From NCBI RefSeq assembly GCF_000397065.2, contig NZ_KE007325.1, positions 398,495-462,494 on the forward strand: a DNA stretch of 64,000 nt. The letters run 5' to 3'. Source of the DNA: Marinobacter lipolyticus SM19. GTDB lineage: Bacteria > Pseudomonadota > Gammaproteobacteria > Pseudomonadales > Oleiphilaceae. The notes beneath the pieces are model-generated. The model worked only from the letters and a program-made list of their open reading frames with translations. It made no database searches and was not told the DNA's origin. Numbering within the stretch: the first letter of the stretch is position 1; each line of letters opens with the position of its first letter. The translations under genes were made by a program, and so were the position numbers. This document shows positions 28,891 through 41,099 of the stretch, piece after piece.

Positions 28891-29955
28891 ATGGTCCATG
28901 ATCAGGTGAAGGACTATTACGGGAAAGTACTGCAGAAATCGGATGACCTGCAAACCAATGCCTGCTGCACTGACGATGCCATGCCCAGTCATCTGAAGCC
29001 CATTATTGGCAAGATCCACGATGAAGTGCTTACGAAGTATTACGGCTGTGGTCTGGTGGCACCGGAACAGTTGGAAGGTATGCGAATTCTTGACCTTGGC
29101 AGCGGCTCGGGCCGGGACGTATACGCACTGGCGGCCCTGGTCGGGGGATCCGGGGAAGTGGTCGGCGTTGACATGACCGATGAACAGCTGGCGGTGGCCC
29201 GTCGTCATGTGGATTACCATGCCGATGTGTTCGGTTTTGCCAAGCCCAATGTCCGTTTCCTCAAGGGCTATATCGAGAAACTGGACGAGCTGGATCTCGA
29301 GCCGGGCAGCTTCGACATCATCGTCTCCAACTGTGTGATCAACCTCTCTCCGGACAAGCCGGCGGTAATGCGAGAAGCCTATCGTCTGCTGAAGCCCGGT
29401 GGCGAAATGTATTTCTCGGACGTCTACTCGGATCGCCGAATCCCCGAATCACTGGTCAACGACCCGGTACTTTATGGCGAGTGTCTCAGTGGCGCGCTCT
29501 ACTGGAACGATTTCGAGAATATGGCGAAAGCCGCCGGTTTTGCGGACCCGCGTCTGGTGACAGACAGCCCGATTACCATCAATAACAGCGCCCAAAAGGA
29601 GAAAACCGGCCCCATCCGCTTCTTCTCGGCCACCTACCGGCTGTTCAAGCTGGAGGGGCTGGAGCCAGCCTGTGAGGATTACGGCCAGGCGGTGATCTAT
29701 CGCGGCACCATCGCGCACCACCCGCATCAGTTCGATCTCGACAAGCACCACGCCATTCCGGCGGGGAAGGTGTTCCCGGTGTGTGGCAACACTCTCCGTA
29801 TGTTGAAGGACACCCGTTTTGCGGAGCATTTTGAGTTTATGGGTGATGGTGCCACTCACTTTGGCATCTTCAAGGATTGCGGTACCGATGTGCCTTTTGG
29901 GAATGGTGATGATCAAGGCGATGATGAAGGTGCCAGCCAGGGAGGGTGTTGTTAA
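28891..29955 (+). CDS. arsM: arsenite S-adenosylmethionine methyltransferase-like protein
   Basis: 354-residue cytoplasmic methyltransferase expected to methylate As(III). The SAM-binding loop is [13 protein letters not shown] (residues 66-78). Cysteines at the positions expected for arsenite binding are present: Cys25-Cys26, Cys53, Cys148 in [11 protein letters not shown] and Cys198 in [10 protein letters not shown]. After about residue 250 comes a C-terminal extension with further Cys, an acidic linker and a terminal Gly-Cys-Cys. No arsR, arsB or arsC gene is adjacent. Its own start is preceded by a weak Shine-Dalgarno. Confidence 0.85.
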
Positions 29956-30229: not shown

Positions 30230-32653
30230 ATGACTCGACACTACTGGATGGGTGGCAAGCGCACCTACGAGCAGGACCGTTTTTTCGAATCATCACTTGA
30301 TAAAGCCCGCTGGCAGGCCGGGGATGATCCGCAGGAGTGGGATGCCTGTTGGTACACCGGCATGCCGGACCCGGAATACTTCGCGAAAGTCGGGCCTGAC
30401 CGCAAGATCAACCACATTCCGGGAAACAACGCCCTGACGGTTAAGAGCCGGCTCTATCAGAGCCTGGTTACGCTTCGGGAGCGGGTCGAGGCGCAACAGC
30501 GCGGGGCGTCTCATCTGACAGACCGGCTGCAGTTCGTACCCCGGGTTTTCTCCATGCCTGAGGATTACCATGAGTTTCAGCAGGAAGCTTTTGACAACCC
30601 GTCCAGCCGCTGGCTGCTCAAGCCCAAGAATGGGGCCCGGGGCAAGGGCATTCAGCTGGTTCAGGATCCGGCGAACATTCCGCTGGATTCTTCATGGATG
30701 GTCCAGGAGTACATCGGTAACCCACACACCATGCACGGGCGCAAATACGTACTGCGCCTGTACGTCGCCATCACTTCTGTCACGCCCTTGCGGGTTTATC
30801 TCTATCGTCAGGGCTTTGCCAAACTTGCCTCTGAACCCTATGACGAAGAAAACGCAGACAACCCCTACAGCTATCTCACCAACCCGGATATTAATGCGCT
30901 GAACCTCGATGCCGAGGTACCGGTGGAGTTTGTTGATCTGGAGCGATATCGGGCCTGGTTGCGGGAGGAAGGTCATGACGATGACGACCTGTTTGCCAAA
31001 ATTGAAGACCTGGTTTCGCTGACCTGCCTATCCGCTCTGGAGTCCATGCGGGAGAGATCGAGGGCGATCGGCGCAGATACCCGGGGTTGCTACGAATTGC
31101 TTGGTATTGATTGCCTGATCGATGACCAGCTCAAACCCTGGATTTGTGAATGCAACCTGAGCCCGTCGCTGGAAGTCTGTGCCGGTCCGGAAAGTGGTGG
31201 CGAGATCGAAGAGGATATCAAGGGCTCGCTGGTGGCGGATCTGGTCAGCTTGGTGGGAGTGAATGGCAAGACTGAACCCGATCATGCCGACACCCCCGAG
31301 CAACAACTGATTATGGAAACCGGGGAAGAGTTGTCGCGGGCGGGGAATTTCAAGCGCCTGCTGCCTTCGGATACCCCGGCTCGGTACCTGCCTTTTTATG
31401 CCCTGCCGCGCCTGGAAGACTGGGTTCTGGCAAAGGCAATCTCCAATGAGCCGCTCACGCAACCGACGCTTAGGCGGCGTTACGCCGAGGACATGATCAG
31501 CGATGATTGTGTGTACGTTTATGACACTCGTCTTGGCCATCTCAGCGCCCTGAACGAGACCGGTTCCCTGATCTGGCTGATGGCGACAGACGGCGCCGCG
31601 CCGGATGACATAGCGGATGCCCTGAATGACTCGATTGATCCCGGGGCGGCGGGCCAACCCGATATCTGGGCCATTCGCCGGGACGTCTGGAATTCGTTGG
31701 CGGACTGGGCCGCCAATCAACTATTGGTGCAAAAAGACCCCTCTGGTGCTTCGATCAGTGCTGTTCCGCGCGCTGTCGAAGCGCGAGTCCCTGGCAAGAC
31801 TGTGCAATTTTCACGGGTCCTTGAGTGTGGGGCCTTCCGGGTCGAACTCTGCACAGACAGCGAGCCCCTGGTTGACCGGATAGAGCCCCTGCTTACGCCG
31901 ATGGCGGGCGAATCGCTACAGGGGGCTGAATCCCGATTGGAAATCGTCCGAGATACACCGGGATACACGCTGATTCTTGACGGTAAGGTCGTTCAGTCAC
32001 GGTTGGCACTTTCCCGGGTGGTACCTGCGGTGATGGTGTGTCTGACCCGACGTGCGGCAGATAACGGCGAGATTGTTCTTGATGCTGGCCTGATTGCCTC
32101 CCCGGATGACCCCGACAATGCCGTCCTGGTGGCCAACAGCGACCGGGAGCTGGGTGATCTGCCTGCGCTTGAGATGGCGAGCCGTCTCGACGCCGGGTTC
32201 AGTCGTGCCATCAAAATCCCGGAGGATGTGGGCGGACTTTGTTCCGTGCTGGGGCTACCGGCTCAGATGCCCGAGTCGAAAACGAATGCTGCCGGCAAGC
32301 CACACGCATCGCCGATTCATCACCTGGCAGACGGCAGCGGCGTGATGCTGCAGGCCGCCTCTTCCGGACTGGCCGGAGAGACGCGCCGGCTTCAGACAGT
32401 GCTTATCCCCAGCCACGTCTCCCTGCGGGAGAAGACAGGGATCCGAAGGCTCTCTGTGAGTGAGGTCATGCGCTATCTCATCCCCGGCTGCTGTGGGGCT
32501 GACGGGCAGCCTTTGGAATCTGCGGGATTCTCACGGCTGGCGGACTGGCTGGCGGGCATTGATCGATATCTGGTGGATGCCAATCACCCGGAAACCGCAA
32601 TGGCGAATTTGCCACTGGAACAGGAAACGCAGGGCGTGAGTCACTCTGCCTGA
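30230..32653 (+). CDS. TTLL-like ATP-grasp ligase fused to PqqD-like and HprK-like domains
   Basis: 807-residue cytoplasmic protein, start ATG 30230 (AGGAG upstream). Residues about 60-345 match tubulin-tyrosine-ligase-like enzymes in order: [13 protein letters not shown] (62-74), [15 protein letters not shown] with the ATP-binding Lys131, [20 protein letters not shown] (157-176), [10 protein letters not shown], and the metal-ligand segment LGIDCLIDD...[11 protein letters not shown] (Asp294, Glu307, Asn309). Eukaryotic TTLLs ligate Glu, Gly or Tyr to protein tails. Residues about 420-500 resemble PqqD, a leader-peptide-binding fold ([20 protein letters not shown]). Residues about 525-800 resemble HprK-related kinases, but the P-loop position has no GxxxxGK[ST]. 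Followed by a peptide gene with a Glu-rich tail, its likely substrate. The substrate and the amino acid added are inferred, not shown. Confidence 0.85.
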
Positions 32654-32660
32654 AAAGAAT

Positions 32661-32677
32661 CCGGGCAAATTGCCCGG
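32661..32677 (+). repeat. short palindromic hairpin between the TTLL gene and the peptide gene
   Basis: CCGGGCAAATTGCCCGG forms a 7-8 bp stem in the 58-base gap between the two genes. It lacks a T-run, so it is not a good terminator. A hairpin here could partly terminate, or protect the 5' end of a processed peptide-cytochrome transcript, and so set the enzyme-to-substrate ratio. Confidence 0.5.
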
Positions 32678-32711
32678 TGTTAACCACCGAAACGGATAGA
32701 GAGGAAAGCAT

Positions 32712-32909
32712 ATGTCCAGAGATATCCAGAAAAGACAGTTGTTGAGAAAGCTCGCCAAGGGGATCAGCTACACCGGCCCGATCCTTGCGGTAGTTGTTGG
32801 TGCGTCGGCCTTCAGTGCCTCGGCCGCTGACGTCAATGCGGAAACTGAATACCTGATGCTGGCCGCCGGAGAAGCCGAGGCTGAAGGTGAAGGCGAGGCC
32901 GAGAGCTAA
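32712..32909 (+). CDS. small exported peptide with alternating (Gly/Ala)-Glu tail
   Basis: 65 residues, ATG 32712 behind GAGAGGAAA. Residues 1-16 are basic and contain LLRKL at 10-14. Residues 17-38 are hydrophobic and end in Ser-Ala-Ser-Ala-Ala, consistent with a signal peptide. The short mature part carries ETEYLML, then a tail of six (Gly/Ala)-Glu dipeptides and a final Ser (residues 53-65). The tail resembles the Glu/Gly-rich C-termini of tubulins, which TTLL enzymes extend. The gene lies 58 bases after the TTLL-PqqD-HprK gene, and the N-terminal LLRKL recurs at the same residue numbers in the cytochrome two genes on. The best guess is a precursor or substrate peptide of the upstream enzyme. 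I know of no named family. Confidence 0.75.
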   Translation: MSRDIQKRQLLRKLAKGISYTGPILAVVVGASAFSASAADVNAETEYLMLAAGEAEAEGEGEAES

Positions 32910-33045
32910 CCCCGGCTGGTTTCACCGGATCAACTGGCAGTGGCCCGGGCAGGGAATAGCTTCCTTGCACCGGGGCCCACCCGCCTGCCCCTGGAAATGA
33001 CGTTGTCGCGATACGAATCAACCCAGCTGATACGGGTGAATAAAA

Positions 33046-33603
33046 ATGCTGAATTCAAGTTCCGAATCCATCAATTGCGCCGACCTTGTGGCTGAAAATA
33101 CACACGCGATCAATCAGCTAACGGACTTTCTCGTGGCGTTACCGGCACAGGTGTACCGACAAACCTTCGGGGCGAGGAAGCAGCATGTGATCGGCAAGCA
33201 CGTACGTCACATCATTGACCATTACATGGCTCTTCTGAGAACTGTGGATGAGCCATCTCCCGAGTCACTTGATTACGAAAACCGACAACGGGAAGAGTCG
33301 CTCGAACTGGACCAACATGCGGCCTGTAACAGGCTCCTGGCGATTGTTAGCTCGCTCTGCCAGTTGATGACCGCCAGGCACCGAACGTCGGTCCTGATGC
33401 GGCATGTCAGCGATGACCATGATCGTCTGGTATCCACCAGTATTGATCGGGAGCTGGTATTCCTTGCCAGCCACACGGTTCACCACATGGCCATTATTGC
33501 CATGCTGGCGGAACAGGAGGGTGTTGAAGTCAGCGAAGAATTCGGGGTTCACCCGTCAACATTGCGGCATTTGCAGCAACTGAATATGGCGAAGAGTGCG
33601 TGA
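33046..33603 (+). CDS. DinB-like four-helix-bundle protein
   Basis: 185 residues, predicted cytoplasmic. His residues in GKHVRHIIDHYMALL and near the end in ELVFLASHTVHHMAII match the three-His metal site of the DinB/YfiT superfamily, whose members include thiol-S-transferases and metal-dependent hydrolases. The bundle lengths fit. It is third in the TTLL operon, after a 136-base gap and 42 bases before the cytochrome gene. Its Shine-Dalgarno is weak. Function within the operon is unknown. Confidence 0.7.
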   Translation: MLNSSSESINCADLVAENTHAINQLTDFLVALPAQVYRQTFGARKQHVIGKHVRHIIDHYMALLRTVDEPSPESLDYENRQREESLELDQHAACNRLLAIVSSLCQLMTARHRTSVLMRHVSDDHDRLVSTSIDRELVFLASHTVHHMAIIAMLAEQEGVEVSEEFGVHPSTLRHLQQLNMAKSA

Positions 33604-33645
33604 CCTGATAGGGCCAATAAAGGATAACAACCGGAGGGTGATCAA

Positions 33646-34284
33646 ATGTCGACTGATACAAATCGTAAGGAACTCCTGCGAAAGCTTTCCCGAAATCTGA
33701 TGGTGTCGGTACCGGTAATGACGGTCGTAGCGATGGCCGGTGCGACGGCGGTATCAGATAACGGATTCAGCTTGATTCCGTCAGCTGAAGCGGCACAGGG
33801 AGAAGCCGAAGGTGAAGCCCGGGGCGAGGCTGAGGGAGAAGCAAAAGGCGAAGCTGAGGGCGAAGGAGAAGCCAAGGGAGAAGCGGAAGGCGAGGGAGAA
33901 GGTGAAGCAGAAGGCGTCTCCGAAGCCAAGAAGGAAGCCGTACGGCGGCCTGAGGGTTACACGCCTTATCAGGGTGATGCCGGTTCTTTGGCTGAAAAGG
34001 GTAAGGTCCTGTTTAACGACACGTCCCTGTCCTCTAACGGGCTGGCGTGCGCTACCTGCCACACCAACGGTGCGGGCTACGCCGATACTTTCTCCAACGA
34101 CTACCCCCATTTTGTGGCAATGGGAAAATCCGACTTCGGCATGGACATGGTCCATCTCGATGAAATGGTCCAGATCTGCATGGTAGCGCCGATGGCTTCG
34201 CAGCCGCTGGATTGGGCGTCAGATCAACTGGCTGCGCTCACCGAGTACATGCGGATTGAGCAGGAAAAGTTCAGAAATAAGTAG
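33646..34284 (+). CDS. c-type cytochrome with (Gly/Ala)-(Glu/Lys/Arg) repeat tract
   Basis: 212 residues. The N-terminus parallels the small peptide: Met-Ser, Asp4, LLRKL at 10-14, then a hydrophobic segment ending near SAEAA (46-50). Residues 52-90 are 19 consecutive dipeptides of Gly/Ala plus a charged residue (16 Glu, 3 Lys/Arg). A monohaem domain follows, with CATCH at 135-139 and a late QICMVAPM that may give the distal Met ligand. Expected to be periplasmic, possibly membrane-tethered if the signal is uncleaved. Codons within the tract vary freely, so the tract looks maintained at protein level. Last gene of the operon, behind GGAGGG and ahead of a clear terminator. Confidence 0.8.
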   Translation: MSTDTNRKELLRKLSRNLMVSVPVMTVVAMAGATAVSDNGFSLIPSAEAAQGEAEGEARGEAEGEAKGEAEGEGEAKGEAEGEGEGEAEGVSEAKKEAVRRPEGYTPYQGDAGSLAEKGKVLFNDTSLSSNGLACATCHTNGAGYADTFSNDYPHFVAMGKSDFGMDMVHLDEMVQICMVAPMASQPLDWASDQLAALTEYMRIEQEKFRNK

Positions 34285-34319: not shown

Positions 34320-34349
34320 CGGGTGGAGCTAGTCTCCACCCCTTTTTTT
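34320..34349 (+). terminator. Rho-independent terminator of the TTLL operon
   Basis: GGGTGGAG, five-base loop, CTCCACCC (34321-34341), then C and seven Ts. It lies 36 bases after the cytochrome stop and overlaps the end of the convergent DsbA-family gene. One of the clearest intrinsic terminators in the window. Confidence 0.88.
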
Positions 34350-35774: not shown

Positions 35775-37925
35775 ATGAAATCCCAGGGAGGGACTGAATC
35801 AGGTGTTGAATTCCGGGACGGTGGCATCTCCCGCCGGCACGATGATGATTGGCATTCCATCCGGGAGTGGGGACCTCAGCTGATTGCCTGTCGCCTTTGC
35901 CGGAATGTCACCATGGCGGCGTTTGTTGCCATCCTGGTCATCGAATCTGTCATTCTGATCCCCTCCTATCGTAACTATGAAGAAAACCTCCTGCGTCAGC
36001 ATGCCACGCTGGCAAGCCAGGCCCTCACCACGTTTCTCGCAACCAAGCCCGGGCCGGTGACCACTGATTCGCTGAATCGGTTGCTTGAAAGTTCCCGAAT
36101 CACGGGCATTGAACTGATGGTTGGAGAGCGCTGGTTGACCGCTGGTGAGCCAGTGGTTGATCCGGGGGATGCCGCGGGGCGGTTACGGGACATGACTCGT
36201 ACTGAGAGCAATCGGCTGGATCTGGCCTGGGGTTCAGGGCAGTGGCTGGGGGATTATCCGGTCAGGGCCCGCGTGGATGTGACCGGAGTTTCCGAAGAGC
36301 TGACATCATTTGTCTTGCGAATACTGGGACTTTCACTGCTTATCGCCGTCTTCGTGACAGTGGTGACCATGGCCGTTGTGGACCGCATGATGTTGTCCCC
36401 GTTATTACGGTTGCGCAGCCGTATCGTCAGAGCCGGTGCGGATGCTGAACATCCGCTTATGTATGTCCGAAAGCCGGAGCGCTGCGACGAATTTGGTGAA
36501 GTTGAGGCGACCTTCAATCGCATGCTGAAGCAGAATGCTTCATACCTGAACCGTTTAAAGGCCCTGAATCAGCGTCTGGATCAGCTGTTGGCGGAGCGCA
36601 CGCGTTCGCTGAGACGGACGGAGCAGGAACTGCACATCCGCAGTCTGTATGACCAGCTGACGGGGCTGGCCAACCGCTCCCTGTTCGAAGAATGTCTGAC
36701 CCGATATCTGGCAGCGCGGAATGACGCGGACAACGTGCGGTCAGCCCTGATTGTCCTTGGCCTCGATGATTTCCAGGCATTAAACGGCCTGGCCGGGCAT
36801 GAAACCGGGGATCGGGTGCTGCAGGAGATTGCCCGCAGGCTTTCTAGGTTCAACAGAGAGCCAGGCCACGTGGCTCGCCTGGGCGGTGACGTTTTCGGGC
36901 TGTTACTGACGCCTGAACAAGATCCAGAATATGATCAGATGGAAGCGGAGATTGCTGCCGTTATTCGTAGCTGTATGGCTCCGGTGTGCGTCGCAGGTGT
37001 GAATTACGAATGCGATGTCAGTGCCGGTGTTGCGGTTACGCCCGTAGATGGTGAGGATGCCGGAACCTTGCTGGGCCATGCCGAGATTGCCATGCACCGG
37101 GCAAAGAAATCCACAGATCTCAAGATTCAGTTTTTCGCGTCAGATCTGGGGGAGCAGATTCAGCATCGCCAGGACATGCTCAAGGATCTGCGTGGTGCCC
37201 AGGAGAGAAACCAGTTGGCACTCCACTACCAGCCACAGTTTGATCGTGCGGGGCATTGTGTTGGCTATGAAGCGCTTCTACGTTGGTATCACCCGTTCCG
37301 CGGTATCGTGTCTCCTGATGAGTTTGTGCCGCTTGCGGAAGAAATCGGATTGATTATTCCTGTCGGGCGGTGGGTCATAGAGCAAGCCATCGTTACCATG
37401 AAGCGTTGGGTAGACGACGGCTTCCAGGGCCGGATGGCGGTGAATGTTTCAGCTCGTCAGCTTACGGATCGATCTCTCGTTGAGCATATCGCCAGTGTTC
37501 TTGAATTCCACAATCTGGTTCCTGATTATCTGGAATTGGAAATCACTGAAACCGCACTGATGAAGGACGTTTCCCTGGCCCTGGAGATTCTGGAAGGATT
37601 TCGCTCGCTGGGAATTCAACTGGCGGTGGATGACTTTGGTACCGGCTATTCGTCCCTTGCCTACCTGAAGGCCTTACCCGTCAAACGCATCAAGATTGAT
37701 CGCGCATTTGTGACGGGATTACCGGATAACGAGCAGGACGAGGTGTTGTGCCGGACTATGATTTCCATGGCGCACAGCCTGGGATGTCGAGTCATTGCGG
37801 AAGGTGTGGAAACCCAGGCGCAGGCGGATTGGCTGATCGCCTCGGGGTGTGATGAGCTTCAAGGCTTTTTGTTGGGCAAGCCGGAGCCGGAATTCTATTG
37901 GTCCTCCCAGTCGATGGTCCTGTAG
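35775..37925 (+). CDS. membrane-bound GGDEF/EAL protein, probable c-di-GMP phosphodiesterase
   Basis: 716 residues. A first membrane helix at about 45-66, a periplasmic sensor of about 110 residues, a second helix at about 178-202, a HAMP-like linker, GGDEF (about 285-450) and EAL (about 465-705). The GGDEF signature is altered to GGDVF (in RLGGDVFGLLL), so cyclase activity is doubtful. The EAL domain looks complete: YEALLRW, NVSARQL, EITETALM, DDFGTGYSSL, IKIDRAFV and AEGVET. Expected to hydrolyse c-di-GMP in response to a periplasmic signal. The last 31 bases overlap the YiiX-like gene tail to tail. Confidence 0.9.
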   Translation: MKSQGGTESGVEFRDGGISRRHDDDWHSIREWGPQLIACRLCRNVTMAAFVAILVIESVILIPSYRNYEENLLRQHATLASQALTTFLATKPGPVTTDSLNRLLESSRITGIELMVGERWLTAGEPVVDPGDAAGRLRDMTRTESNRLDLAWGSGQWLGDYPVRARVDVTGVSEELTSFVLRILGLSLLIAVFVTVVTMAVVDRMMLSPLLRLRSRIVRAGADAEHPLMYVRKPERCDEFGEVEATFNRMLKQNASYLNRLKALNQRLDQLLAERTRSLRRTEQELHIRSLYDQLTGLANRSLFEECLTRYLAARNDADNVRSALIVLGLDDFQALNGLAGHETGDRVLQEIARRLSRFNREPGHVARLGGDVFGLLLTPEQDPEYDQMEAEIAAVIRSCMAPVCVAGVNYECDVSAGVAVTPVDGEDAGTLLGHAEIAMHRAKKSTDLKIQFFASDLGEQIQHRQDMLKDLRGAQERNQLALHYQPQFDRAGHCVGYEALLRWYHPFRGIVSPDEFVPLAEEIGLIIPVGRWVIEQAIVTMKRWVDDGFQGRMAVNVSARQLTDRSLVEHIASVLEFHNLVPDYLELEITETALMKDVSLALEILEGFRSLGIQLAVDDFGTGYSSLAYLKALPVKRIKIDRAFVTGLPDNEQDEVLCRTMISMAHSLGCRVIAEGVETQAQADWLIASGCDELQGFLLGKPEPEFYWSSQSMVL

Positions 37926-38650
37926 TCAAAGTCGGTTTCAAGGGTGGGTTTGATGATTCGGAAGTAGGGAGAGGCGTCGAAATCCCTGGGTGTGAACAGC
38001 GAATGGTGGCGGATGCGGAAGCGCTCCATAACGCAATCCTCACAATCCGGGTCGTCCGCCGGGAGCGTTCTTACAATCGGCAGGATGGGATAGCGCAGTA
38101 ACTGGAACCCTTCTGCAATAAAGGTTGAGCAGATGGCCCGTGTCGGGTCCCCACTCCCGAACGCCAACAGTTTGTGCCTGTAACGAGTGGGTACCGGAGG
38201 CGTCGGGAAAAGATAGCGCGCCAGGTCAAACACGTTCTTCATGTCGTACTGGTGCCCCATGCGACTGATGGCATAATCCGTCAGTTGGCGAATATCATTC
38301 CCGCTGAGTCCGAGCGGTCGACAGACCCGAATGTGGGAGTGGCGGTAGAACGACAGTGGAATTGCCCGAATGCCTTCCTGAAGATCCGCTTCAACAAGTA
38401 CCCGCGATTCGCCGTCGTCCACTTCGCCAAGGCCCGCATCCGGACCGAGGTACAAAGCTGCGTGAGACCAGGTGGACTGGGTAAGATACTTGATCGCGAC
38501 ACTGATGCGCGTATCCCCCTCGACCAGAAGTACGTCTCCCGGTTGCAATGCCCCCTGCAGCGCTTCCCAGGTCGACGTCCTGATGGAGTGACGGGTGATC
38601 TGCTTGGACAAGTAGGCAGCAAGGCGCCGCGATAGCCAGTTCAGGAACAT
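37895..38650 (-). CDS. YiiX/YebB-like NlpC/P60-superfamily cysteine hydrolase
   Basis: 251 residues, a permuted papain-like fold. A His of STWSHAALYLG (about 84) and a Cys of AICSTFIAEGFQ (about 172) match the catalytic pair. The basic N-terminal 25 residues may associate with membrane; no clear signal peptide is visible. Relatives cleave peptide, isopeptide or acyl bonds. It carries its own copy of the ECF-type promoter, so it belongs to the same proposed regulon as the TTLL system. The substrate is unknown. Confidence 0.78.
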   Translation of the reverse strand: MFLNWLSRRLAAYLSKQITRHSIRTSTWEALQGALQPGDVLLVEGDTRISVAIKYLTQSTWSHAALYLGPDAGLGEVDDGESRVLVEADLQEGIRAIPLSFYRHSHIRVCRPLGLSGNDIRQLTDYAISRMGHQYDMKNVFDLARYLFPTPPVPTRYRHKLLAFGSGDPTRAICSTFIAEGFQLLRYPILPIVRTLPADDPDCEDCVMERFRIRHHSLFTPRDFDASPYFRIIKPTLETDFDYRTIDWEDQ

Positions 38651-39228: not shown

Positions 39229-39286
39229 TGTATTTTAGTGTCTCCATTGTGTGGCCGTTGTCGACCGGCGTTCTGGAGGAAATCCG

Positions 39287-40228
39287 ATGAAGTTACATAG
39301 TCGCGCCGCATGGGTGCTGTGTGCGTTGGTTCTGGTAGCTGCGCGGCCGGCGCTTGCCCAGGAAAAGAACGGGTTTGATCTGAGCAACGCTTTGATACCG
39401 GTCGATGAGATTCTCAGTGGCGGGCCGCCTCGTGACGGTATTCCCTCAATCGACAACCCGAAATTTGAGAGCGCAGGTGACTCGTTGCCCTGGCGGGAGG
39501 ACGATCTGGTCATGACCTATGATCATGGGCAGGCACGGTACGCGTTCCCTGTTGGTATTCTGAACTGGCACGAGATCGTTAATCACGAGTCAGATGGAGA
39601 GCCAGTACTCATTACGTTTTGCCCACTATGCGGCACTGGAATGGCCTTTGACCCGGTGGTGAACGGCCGTCACTTGACCTTCGGGGTGTCTGGCCTGCTC
39701 TACAACAGTGACCTGCTGATGTACGACCACCAGACCGAGTCGCTCTGGTCACAGATTGAAGGTCGGGCAATAGCCGGCCCGCTGGCGGGTAAGGAGCTGG
39801 AGTCGGTCGCCATTCGCCATGAACTTTGGCAGAGCTGGCGGGAGCGGGTAGGATCCAAGGGGCTCGTGCTGTCCACCGACACCGGGCACCGCCGTAATTA
39901 CCGGAAGTCTCCCTACGGTGACTACGACCATTCCGAGCGCATGTACTTCCCGGTTTCTCACACCAGCCGCAAGTATCACCCCAAGACCTGGGTGCTGGGC
40001 TGGACCCACAATGGTGAGAGCAAGGCCTGGCCCTTCCCTGAGCTGGCAAATCATGACGGCGTGCTGGAAGACCGGATCGGGGGGAAGAGCGTTCGTGTTC
40101 ACTACGACCCGAGCGTACCCTCCGCCGAACTGCGTGACGAGACGGGTGAACTCCTGCCCGCAACCCGGGCTTTCTGGTTTGCCTGGTATACCTTCCATCC
40201 GGAAACCGGCGTGTTTGAAGCTGAGTAG
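39287..40228 (+). CDS. DUF3179 domain-containing exported protein
   Basis: 313 residues from ATG 39287 (GGAGG upstream), with a signal peptide ending Ala-Leu-Ala-Gln. The DUF3179 core is recognisable from the pair FCPLCGTGMAFDP and YNSDLLMYDHQTESLWSQI, then LGWTHNGESKAWPF. The CPLC motif suggests metal or redox chemistry, but no activity is established for the family. Convergent with the anti-sigma gene, which ends 3 bases later. Confidence 0.85.
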   Translation: MKLHSRAAWVLCALVLVAARPALAQEKNGFDLSNALIPVDEILSGGPPRDGIPSIDNPKFESAGDSLPWREDDLVMTYDHGQARYAFPVGILNWHEIVNHESDGEPVLITFCPLCGTGMAFDPVVNGRHLTFGVSGLLYNSDLLMYDHQTESLWSQIEGRAIAGPLAGKELESVAIRHELWQSWRERVGSKGLVLSTDTGHRRNYRKSPYGDYDHSERMYFPVSHTSRKYHPKTWVLGWTHNGESKAWPFPELANHDGVLEDRIGGKSVRVHYDPSVPSAELRDETGELLPATRAFWFAWYTFHPETGVFEAE

Positions 40229-40230
40229 TG

Positions 40231-40488
40231 CTACGTCTGGTCGTCGCCCCGCTCTTTCGCGTCAAGAGCTGCGGCGACACGCTCATCAACATGACGAACG
40301 AATTCCTCGTCCACAGTCCCCGAGGTATGTGCCTTCAGAAGTTCCGTACTGGCACGCAGGTTGCCGATGAAAGATCGGCAATTTCCACACATCATCAAAT
40401 GCATCTTCACGGATAGTTTTCCGGCGGTGCCAAGTTCGCCATCAATGTAATCGCTGGCGATCATGGCTAGATCCCTGCACATCAACAT
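40231..40488 (-). CDS. zinc-finger anti-sigma factor
   Basis: 85 residues. An HC2-type zinc motif, Cys4 and His30-x3-Cys34-x2-Cys37, is followed by a helical tail and no membrane helix, so it is a soluble ZAS-type anti-sigma domain. It should bind the ECF sigma encoded just upstream and release it on oxidation or metal loss. It starts inside the sigma gene; the second ATG (40482) would form a TGATG coupling with the sigma stop, so either ATG may be used. Confidence 0.85.
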   Translation of the reverse strand: MLMCRDLAMIASDYIDGELGTAGKLSVKMHLMMCGNCRSFIGNLRASTELLKAHTSGTVDEEFVRHVDERVAAALDAKERGDDQT

Positions 40489-41099
40489 TCGCCCGTCTCC
40501 TGGAACGTCTCCACCATGAGAAATATCTTCTGTCGCGCTCGGTGTATAAGCACACGAAGATTAGAGGCACTGACGTCCAGAATGTTACACACATCGTCGG
40601 ATTTGTGCTGATGGGCTTCGTACAGCATCAGGGCGGATCGCTGGGTTTCAGGCAACGCCGAGAGGTGTTTGTCCAGGCAGTCGCTGAGCGCGCAGTTTTC
40701 CATCAGGGTGTCTGCGGACTCATCAAACCGCAGTTTGGGGGGGATTTCCCAGCGGCCGGAGGCATTGAACCGGTTATCCAGATCCGGATCCATGCTATCG
40801 GAGAAGTCCAGCGGGACTTCGCGTTTGGCCGATCTGAGCCTGTTTTTGCAGCGATTGGCAACGATGCGGTGAAGCCAGGTTTTGAGTCCCGAGCGGCCCT
40901 CGAACGTTTGAATCGCGTCAATGACGGTTACCCAGCAATCCTGAACAATGTCTTCAGCACTTGAGCGATCAAGGTAGAATCGCGCGACGGCGAGCATGCC
41001 GGGGGTGTATGCGCGCACCGCCTCGTGGTATGACTGCTGCTCCCCCGACTTCATTCTTGAAATCAGTGTTTTCTCGTCGGGATTGTCCGTGCCAGCCAC
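40482..41099 (-). CDS. ECF-family RNA polymerase sigma factor
   Basis: 205 residues. Region 2 contains SAEDIVQDCWVTVIDAIQTF and GLKTWLHRIVANRCKNRLR; region 4 contains LPETQRSALMLYEAH and VSASNLRVLIHRARQKI. The linker between them is long (about 50 residues). Starts at GTG 41099 behind AAAGGAAA. Paired with a zinc anti-sigma. It is the obvious candidate to read the six TGTAAC-N16-TGTC sites nearby. No exact copy of that motif lies ahead of this gene itself. Confidence 0.92.
   Translation of the reverse strand: MAGTDNPDEKTLISRMKSGEQQSYHEAVRAYTPGMLAVARFYLDRSSAEDIVQDCWVTVIDAIQTFEGRSGLKTWLHRIVANRCKNRLRSAKREVPLDFSDSMDPDLDNRFNASGRWEIPPKLRFDESADTLMENCALSDCLDKHLSALPETQRSALMLYEAHQHKSDDVCNILDVSASNLRVLIHRARQKIFLMVETFQETGEC

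Follow-up and report, generated by a model that had tools for sequence, protein, structure and literature searches.

Related systems and the locus

To our knowledge, the chemistry of tubulin tyrosine ligase-like (TTLL) enzymes is known as eukaryotic, and it mostly concerns the modification of microtubules. Here, an apparent bacterial case is presented: an 807-residue protein encoded in a 64,000-nucleotide stretch of the Marinobacter lipolyticus SM19 genome (contig NZ_KE007325.1, positions 398,495 to 462,494; the whole stretch is called the window, and positions are counted from its first letter), in which a predicted TTLL catalytic domain is fused to a predicted recognition element (RRE) of the kind found with ribosomally synthesized and post-translationally modified peptides (RiPPs), and to a domain of PEPCK fold. 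The same run of genes on the + strand, positions 30230-34284, encodes a short peptide and a cytochrome, which have one leader in common and carry tracts of alternating Glu and Gly or Ala. We consider it fairly probable that these genes form a leader-guided, RiPP-like system, in which the RRE would read the leader and the TTLL domain would add branches to the Glu residues of the tails before export. The genes are the following:

30230-32653, + strand: fused TTLL-RRE-PEPCK-fold ligase, 807 residues (Pfam, PDB sequence, profile and fold searches)
32712-32909, + strand: precursor peptide, 65 residues, with leader, Gly-Glu (GE) tail and export-like N-terminus (open reading frame translation, leader profile)
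33046-33603, + strand: DinB-like protein (PF05163, E 9.8e-7)
33646-34284, + strand: SoxA/TsdA-type c cytochrome with leader, internal GE tract and export-like N-terminus (PF21342)

Coordinates and gene order agree with a first-pass annotation made by a model from the sequence alone; the DinB-like gene sits between those of the peptide and the cytochrome. Among the matches listed, the closest named records with the ligase gene are metagenome-assembled genomes (MAGs) of Marinobacter, with 94% and 90% identity.

The closest described case is TTLL5, whose substrate is the run of Glu-Gly repeats in RPGR-ORF15, which it glutamylates; a separate basic domain targets it to RPGR, and it bears an initiase signature (PMC13052805). 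The window system is like the TTLL5-RPGR pair in its TTL fold, in Glu-Gly repeats as presumed acceptor, in a separate docking site and in an initiase-like residue at the position of TTLL6 Q180. It is unlike eukaryotic TTLLs in being bacterial, in its fused RRE, which would read a leader, in its apparently exported substrates and in having no tubulin. The RRE fold and a YxxP leader motif are shared with the B1 proteins of lasso peptides (TbiB1, TfuB1), whereas the modifier is a TTLL ligase, the presumed substrates are long proteins including a cytochrome, and the motif lies inside an apparent Sec signal sequence. As with the bufferins modified by multinuclear non-heme iron-dependent oxidases (MNIOs), the precursors are long, have signal peptides and are in some cases encoded away from the enzyme gene (PMC12452194). 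DoxX-like genes, as judged by eye, are a further likeness near the ligase in some loci; unlike in the bufferins, the core residue is Glu and not Cys, the enzyme is an ATP-dependent ligase, and no MNIO or DUF2063 gene was recognized by eye, none having been searched for.

RimK is also a bacterial ATP-grasp Glu ligase acting on a protein, yet it acts on the C-terminus of S6, is not known to be leader-guided and belongs to a different ATP-grasp family. The HPr-rel-A or GAK systems have a related set of domains (an HprK-related protein, PqqD and an ATP-grasp enzyme) on separate genes, which are fused in the window system. In a comparison of 32 ligase homologues with NCBIfam (E up to 1), none matched an HprK-related model or a GAK ATP-grasp model; of the models for these systems, only TIGR04353 was matched, weakly (nine of the 32, best E 6.2e-4). 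The P-loop is missing. Among the open-licence papers listed, as far as titles and the beginnings of abstracts tell, no report of a bacterial TTLL with leader-bearing Glu-Gly substrates was found.

RRE-guided modification and TTLL ligases are each of a known kind; as a RiPP class, their combination would be new. If the reading is true, the ligase would be a bacterial counterpart of a writer of the tubulin code and a new enzyme type for RRE-guided modification, with a bearing on the origin of TTLLs. With a docking domain built in and short, genetically encoded substrates, such a bacterial TTLL would also be a simple tool for the study and use of branch glutamylation.

Domains of the fused ligase

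The features of the ligase gene are listed below.

30230-31399, + strand: TTLL catalytic domain, residues 1-390 (fold match to TTLL6)
30635-30640, + strand: Ala136-Arg137 (aligned to Cys-Gln of wild-type TTLL6, the Gln being Q180, and to Ala-Arg of engineered TTLL6)
31460-31735, + strand: predicted RRE, a PqqD-like leader-binding domain, residues 411-502 (TbiB1 fold and profile)
31784-32632, + strand: PEPCK/HprK-fold domain without P-loop, residues 519-801 (PEPCK fold; Walker A in 0 of 32 homologues)

The TTL domain is recognized by the Pfam model PF03133 with an E of 8.3e-57 (193.1 bits, cut-off 20.1), and this model is matched by all 32 homologues. Its sequence matches in the PDB are TTLL6, TTLL7, TTLL11 and TTL. 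TTLL6 is the best relative, both by the single sequence (E 3.6e-35) and by a profile of the 32 sequences (6.9e-55); the same profile yielded 1.9e-47 for TTLL7, 1.8e-14 for 5vlq, which we take to be TTLL3, and 4.7e-13 for TTL. Given that TTLL6 and TTLL7 outscore 5vlq strongly, the family is closest to the glutamylases. These scores stand against a rival in which the same leader-guided system would use a glycylase-type TTLL, adding Gly or another amino acid to the tail Glu. In its favor, TTLL glycylases act on internal Glu too (PMC12340829); we regard this variant as unlikely.

In a structure predicted from the 32 sequences (mean pLDDT, the predicted local distance difference test, 83.4; pTM, the predicted template modeling score, 0.81), the TTLL domain matches TTLL6 (6vzt_B) with a Z of 40.3 and a root-mean-square deviation (rmsd) of 2.5 Å over 363 residues; in an earlier model from 11 sequences, the TTL part was poor, mean pLDDT 53.1. 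Residues K131, R176, R188, K198, D294, E307 and N309, presumably those of catalysis and of the nucleotide and metal sites, are invariant in 32/32 homologues. By sequence and fold the protein is a TTLL-type ligase, and it is predicted to ligate an amino acid to a protein.

Two positions of the active site bear on whether branches would be started or elongated. Where wild-type TTLL6 has Cys-Gln, the window protein has Ala-Arg, as does the engineered TTLL6 (6vzq/6vzr), a form that reportedly initiates branches (Mahalingan, 2020). All 32 homologues have Leu directly behind the invariant Asn309, a position held by His in wild-type and by Ile in engineered TTLL6. Arg or Lys occupies the Q180-equivalent position throughout the 32, and Q180 is the primary determinant of elongase selectivity in TTLL6 (PMC12366701).

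For the RRE, strands are predicted at 414-440, followed by three helices at 443-495, and this fold matches TbiB1 with its leader peptide (5v1u_A) at Z 11.6 and an rmsd of 1.8 Å over 83 residues. The family profile of the region finds TbiB1 with an E of 1.4e-5. In the window protein itself, PqqD stays below the Pfam cut-off (18.5 bits against 23.4); among the homologues, it is matched in 31/32 at E up to 1 (best 1.3e-9), and the lasso PqqD model NF033530 in 24/32 at the same threshold (best 2.3e-6). The best explanation of this domain is that it would bind the leader of the precursors.

The C-terminal part matches PEPCK (6asm) with a Z of 13.9 and an rmsd of 5.0 Å over 262 residues. HprK shares the PEPCK fold; no HprK chain is among the 50 fold matches listed, which excludes nothing. 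Both the RRE and the PEPCK folds were read from the better-scored C-terminal half of the 11-sequence model, the fold matches listed for the 32-sequence model being TTLL chains. Since a Walker A motif is found in none of the 32 homologues, a kinase role of this domain is unlikely. The first-pass annotation had described TTLL, PqqD-like and HprK-like regions in one protein: the first holds by PF03133 and the second by homologues, family profile and fold, while of the third the fold is retained and the nucleotide-binding motif is not.

Leaders and tails

The elements of the two putative precursors are as follows:

32769-32780, + strand: YTGP (YxxP) motif of the peptide leader (leader alignment)
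32868-32906, + strand: GE tail of the peptide, 13 residues (translation)
33703-33714, + strand: VSVP motif of the cytochrome leader, a hydrophobic variant of YxxP (leader alignment)
33799-33915, + strand: GE tract of the cytochrome, residues 52-90 of 212, in mixed synonymous codons (codon reading)
34048-34062, + strand: CXXCH heme-binding motif, CATCH (cytochrome sequence)

The leader profile matches the peptide with an E of 9.1e-29 and the cytochrome with 2.2e-26, each being itself part of the profile. For a wider comparison, 60 leaders with their tails were collected from 50 loci; one spurious opposite-strand open reading frame was dropped, leaving 59 distinct leaders, one of which (L127) comes from a genome without the ligase (G793). 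In 59/59, the position exactly 13 residues past the first Leu of LLxxL is a Pro, a residue that was not a criterion when the leaders were picked; Tyr stands three residues before it in 44. Closer de-duplication, a count in which the Pro was required, left 53 leaders, 41 of them with the Tyr. YxxP is a characterized recognition motif of lasso-peptide RREs and tolerates hydrophobic variants such as LxxP (PMC12710340). The motif strengthens the earlier proposal that the shared N-terminus serves as a leader, and from their N-terminal sequences both proteins look exported. A second type of leader peptide, with a YSVP or YAVP motif and a GE- or Ala-Glu-rich tail, was seen at L090, L092, L097, L105, L106 and L128, sometimes several kb from the ligase.

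The runs of (Gly/Ala)-Glu noted in the first-pass annotation are real. Over the 60 tails, Glu alternates with Gly or Ala: Glu-Glu pairs occur 10 times against 384.6 expected from shuffles (standard deviation 12.4; an earlier, looser tail count gave 10 against 357), and 947 of 1001 neighboring Glu residues are 2 or 4 apart. The tail of the window peptide is short at 13 residues, those of its relatives having 21-65. The cytochrome exceeds the cut-off of PF21342 (29.5 bits, cut-off 27) and, just, that of CCP_MauG (26.1, cut-off 25.6).

The placement of the tracts bears on where the ligase would act. The enzyme might modify another site or target, such as a C-terminus, with the GE tails as acidic docking sites or linkers; RimK adds Glu to the C-terminus of a ribosomal protein (PMC4431377), and the peptide tails do sit at the C-terminus. 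The cytochrome tract is internal, however, and the alternation of Glu over the 60 tails and the loss of the tail along with the enzyme, described below, point to the tails themselves, which makes this alternative improbable. Because the cytochrome tract is internal, branch addition is also likelier than the C-terminal extension that the first-pass annotation had allowed for.

Composition speaks to a further alternative, a graspetide-like cross-linking of tail Glu to nearby Ser, Thr or Lys. ATP-grasp ligases form the lactam and lactone links of graspetides (PMC8939145), yet such acceptors are few in the tails (K 106, S 57 and T 11, or 174 of 2820 residues), and the domain is a TTLL by Pfam and by fold. 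We regard this route as very improbable.

Distribution of ligase and leader genes

The distribution was studied in 58 relatives of the genus (the genus set) and in 151 genomes of a second family of the order. The ligase is present beyond fragments in seven of the former, G004 having a fragment, and in 24 of the latter, where G715 has an in-frame TAG and G699 a fragment without a leader gene. Two Robiginitomaculum MAGs also hold it, at 38-39% identity. The ligase profile matched 5 of 397 genomes of a phylum sample, two of them weakly over short parts, and 3 of 293 of an order sample; the strong matches of both samples are G000, G014 and G393. PF03133 is matched in 45 of 299 Pseudomonadota genomes, over most of the model only in the ligase holders G000 and G014. 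The other TTL matches were rejected as TTLLs, as they cover short parts only (about 27-102 of 292 positions). Spread on mobile elements was likewise rejected: there was no plasmid match, and the phage matches are remote (two records, with 22.6% identity across 27% of the query).

The first-pass annotation had staked its proposal on the tail-bearing genes being conserved beside the fused enzyme in other genomes. The proposal withstood this test: a leader-plus-GE gene adjoins the ligase in 34/34 loci examined, which span Marinobacter, the second family and Robiginitomaculum; it encodes the peptide in 32 and a GE cytochrome in two, both of Robiginitomaculum. Locus L010 stands outside the 34, since its contig ends inside the peptide; a leader fitting the contig end was found. 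Several second-family genomes have the GE cytochrome further away, about 9-19 kb from the ligase or, on the opposite strand, at a distance of a few kb; leader and tail are retained there as well.

Leader genes were also searched for independently of the ligase. In the genus set, intact ones occur in 7/7 genomes with the ligase, two in each, against 0/51 without it; in the second family, in 24/24 against 1/127 (25/151 in total). Fisher's test gives 3.3e-9 for the genus set (2.7e-8 with G025 counted as present) and 5.4e-27 for the second family, values that overstate independence because genomes within a family are related.

Exchange of the cytochrome tail

The cytochrome is matched in 19 of the 58 genomes of the genus set, 7 with the ligase and 12 without. 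All seven ligase genomes have a GE tract, while 8 of the 12 others have Cys-rich NPCA (Asn-Pro-Cys-Ala) repeats. The other four, which are broken (G004, G025), very short (G017, a 27-residue match) or remote (G044, peroxidase-like), were left out of the test. With a threshold of E 1e-15, the cytochrome is found in 27 of the 151 genomes of the second family: with the ligase, 14 have GE and one (G689, locus L149) NPCA; without it, nine have NPCA, one (G793) GE, and two (G141, G792; tail missing or gene broken) were left out. Nine of the 24 ligase-bearing genomes of this family have no cytochrome at that threshold. Overall, cytochrome tails are 21 GE and 1 NPCA with the ligase, against 1 GE and 17 NPCA without it.

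The NPCA cytochromes of the 17 ligase-free genomes are at L021-L023, L026, L028, L054, L055, L057, L155, L157, L159, L161, L162 and L164-L167. A DUF6969 gene adjoins an NPCA cytochrome at L052, and in two loci inspected by eye (L051, L052) no modification enzyme was recognized beside it.

The ligase and the cytochrome seem to decay together. In G004, what is left is a ligase fragment and, continuing from the DinB-like frame, the 3' part alone of the cytochrome core; in G025, where no ligase was matched, the GE cytochrome contains a stop and its heme motif is damaged; and in G141 the start of the leader is joined to the cytochrome core, the tail being absent.

These distributions weigh on another view, in which the GE tracts carry no modification, being low-complexity acidic stretches that arose, for example, by salt adaptation or repeat slippage, and in which the ligase is associated with them incidentally. 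The host groups do include salt-loving bacteria, and tail lengths vary. Against this, intact leader genes go with the ligase in both genome sets (58 and 151), NPCA repeats are found in cytochromes from ligase-free members of the genus, and the tract of the window cytochrome is written in mixed synonymous codons, which speaks against recent slippage there. This view is thus very improbable.

Proposed mechanism

Tail modification and the amino acid added, the succession of events, the way of export and the biological role are all inferred from sequence. The RRE of the fused enzyme would bind the conserved YxxP segment in the N-terminal leader, or signal sequence, of both precursors. Using ATP, the TTLL domain would then initiate branches by coupling an amino acid (most likely Glu, less likely Gly) to side-chain carboxylates of the Glu residues that are spaced regularly along the tails. 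The PEPCK-fold domain would probably be a scaffold, or a clamp for the substrate, rather than a kinase. The modified precursors would be exported by Sec, and the cytochrome would receive its heme in the periplasm. The role may lie at the cell envelope, in binding metal or transferring electrons; ion binding is suggested by the alternative Cys-rich tail and by a gene for resistance-nodulation-division (RND) efflux in locus L043, metal-related by eye.

With somewhat less confidence than the leader-guided system itself, we favor a new class, in which GE or Ala-Glu tails on a secreted peptide and a c-type cytochrome would receive branched glutamylation and the signal sequence would double as the RRE leader. 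The tail would be an exchangeable, probably ion-binding module, since the cytochrome of ligase-free genomes mostly bears the unrelated NPCA tail.

Several observations weigh against branch glutamylation guided by the leader, in addition to the relatedness of the genomes compared. The sequence is compatible with Glu, Gly or another amino acid as the added group. At the two active-site positions, the second family carries Ser-Lys in place of Ala-Arg. Shared ancestry alone could keep the leaders alike. Among the genomes, G689 combines ligase and GE peptide with an NPCA cytochrome; G793 has a GE cytochrome and an intact leader with no ligase match, which may be an orphan substrate or an assembly gap; the ligase-free G025 keeps a broken leader match; and the two Robiginitomaculum genomes show no peptide and one leader gene each.

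Neighboring genes

A DinB-like motif is a frequent neighbor, found in 25 of 30 ligase loci parsed (the ligase motif was missed in the other four of the 34). Downstream of the cytochrome gene, the hairpin scan gave one further feature, to be read against six terminator-like sites found in the whole window and 4.4 expected:

34321-34341, + strand: terminator-like hairpin, then a T run

Directly upstream of the ligase, a methyltransferase gene (28891-29955, Pfam Methyltransf_31) is arsenite-methyltransferase-like by eye. A permuted papain-like amidase (Peptidase_C92) is encoded at 37898-38650, and ligase-free genomes have look-alikes of it, as judged by eye, near the cytochrome. This amidase was rejected as a remover of the tails, given that one such look-alike adjoins an NPCA cytochrome in a ligase-free genome. 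Also near the cluster, at 39251-41099, are a DUF3179 protein and a sigma factor of the extracytoplasmic function type with a zf-HC2 partner; pairs similar by eye are found near the cytochrome in L049-L052.

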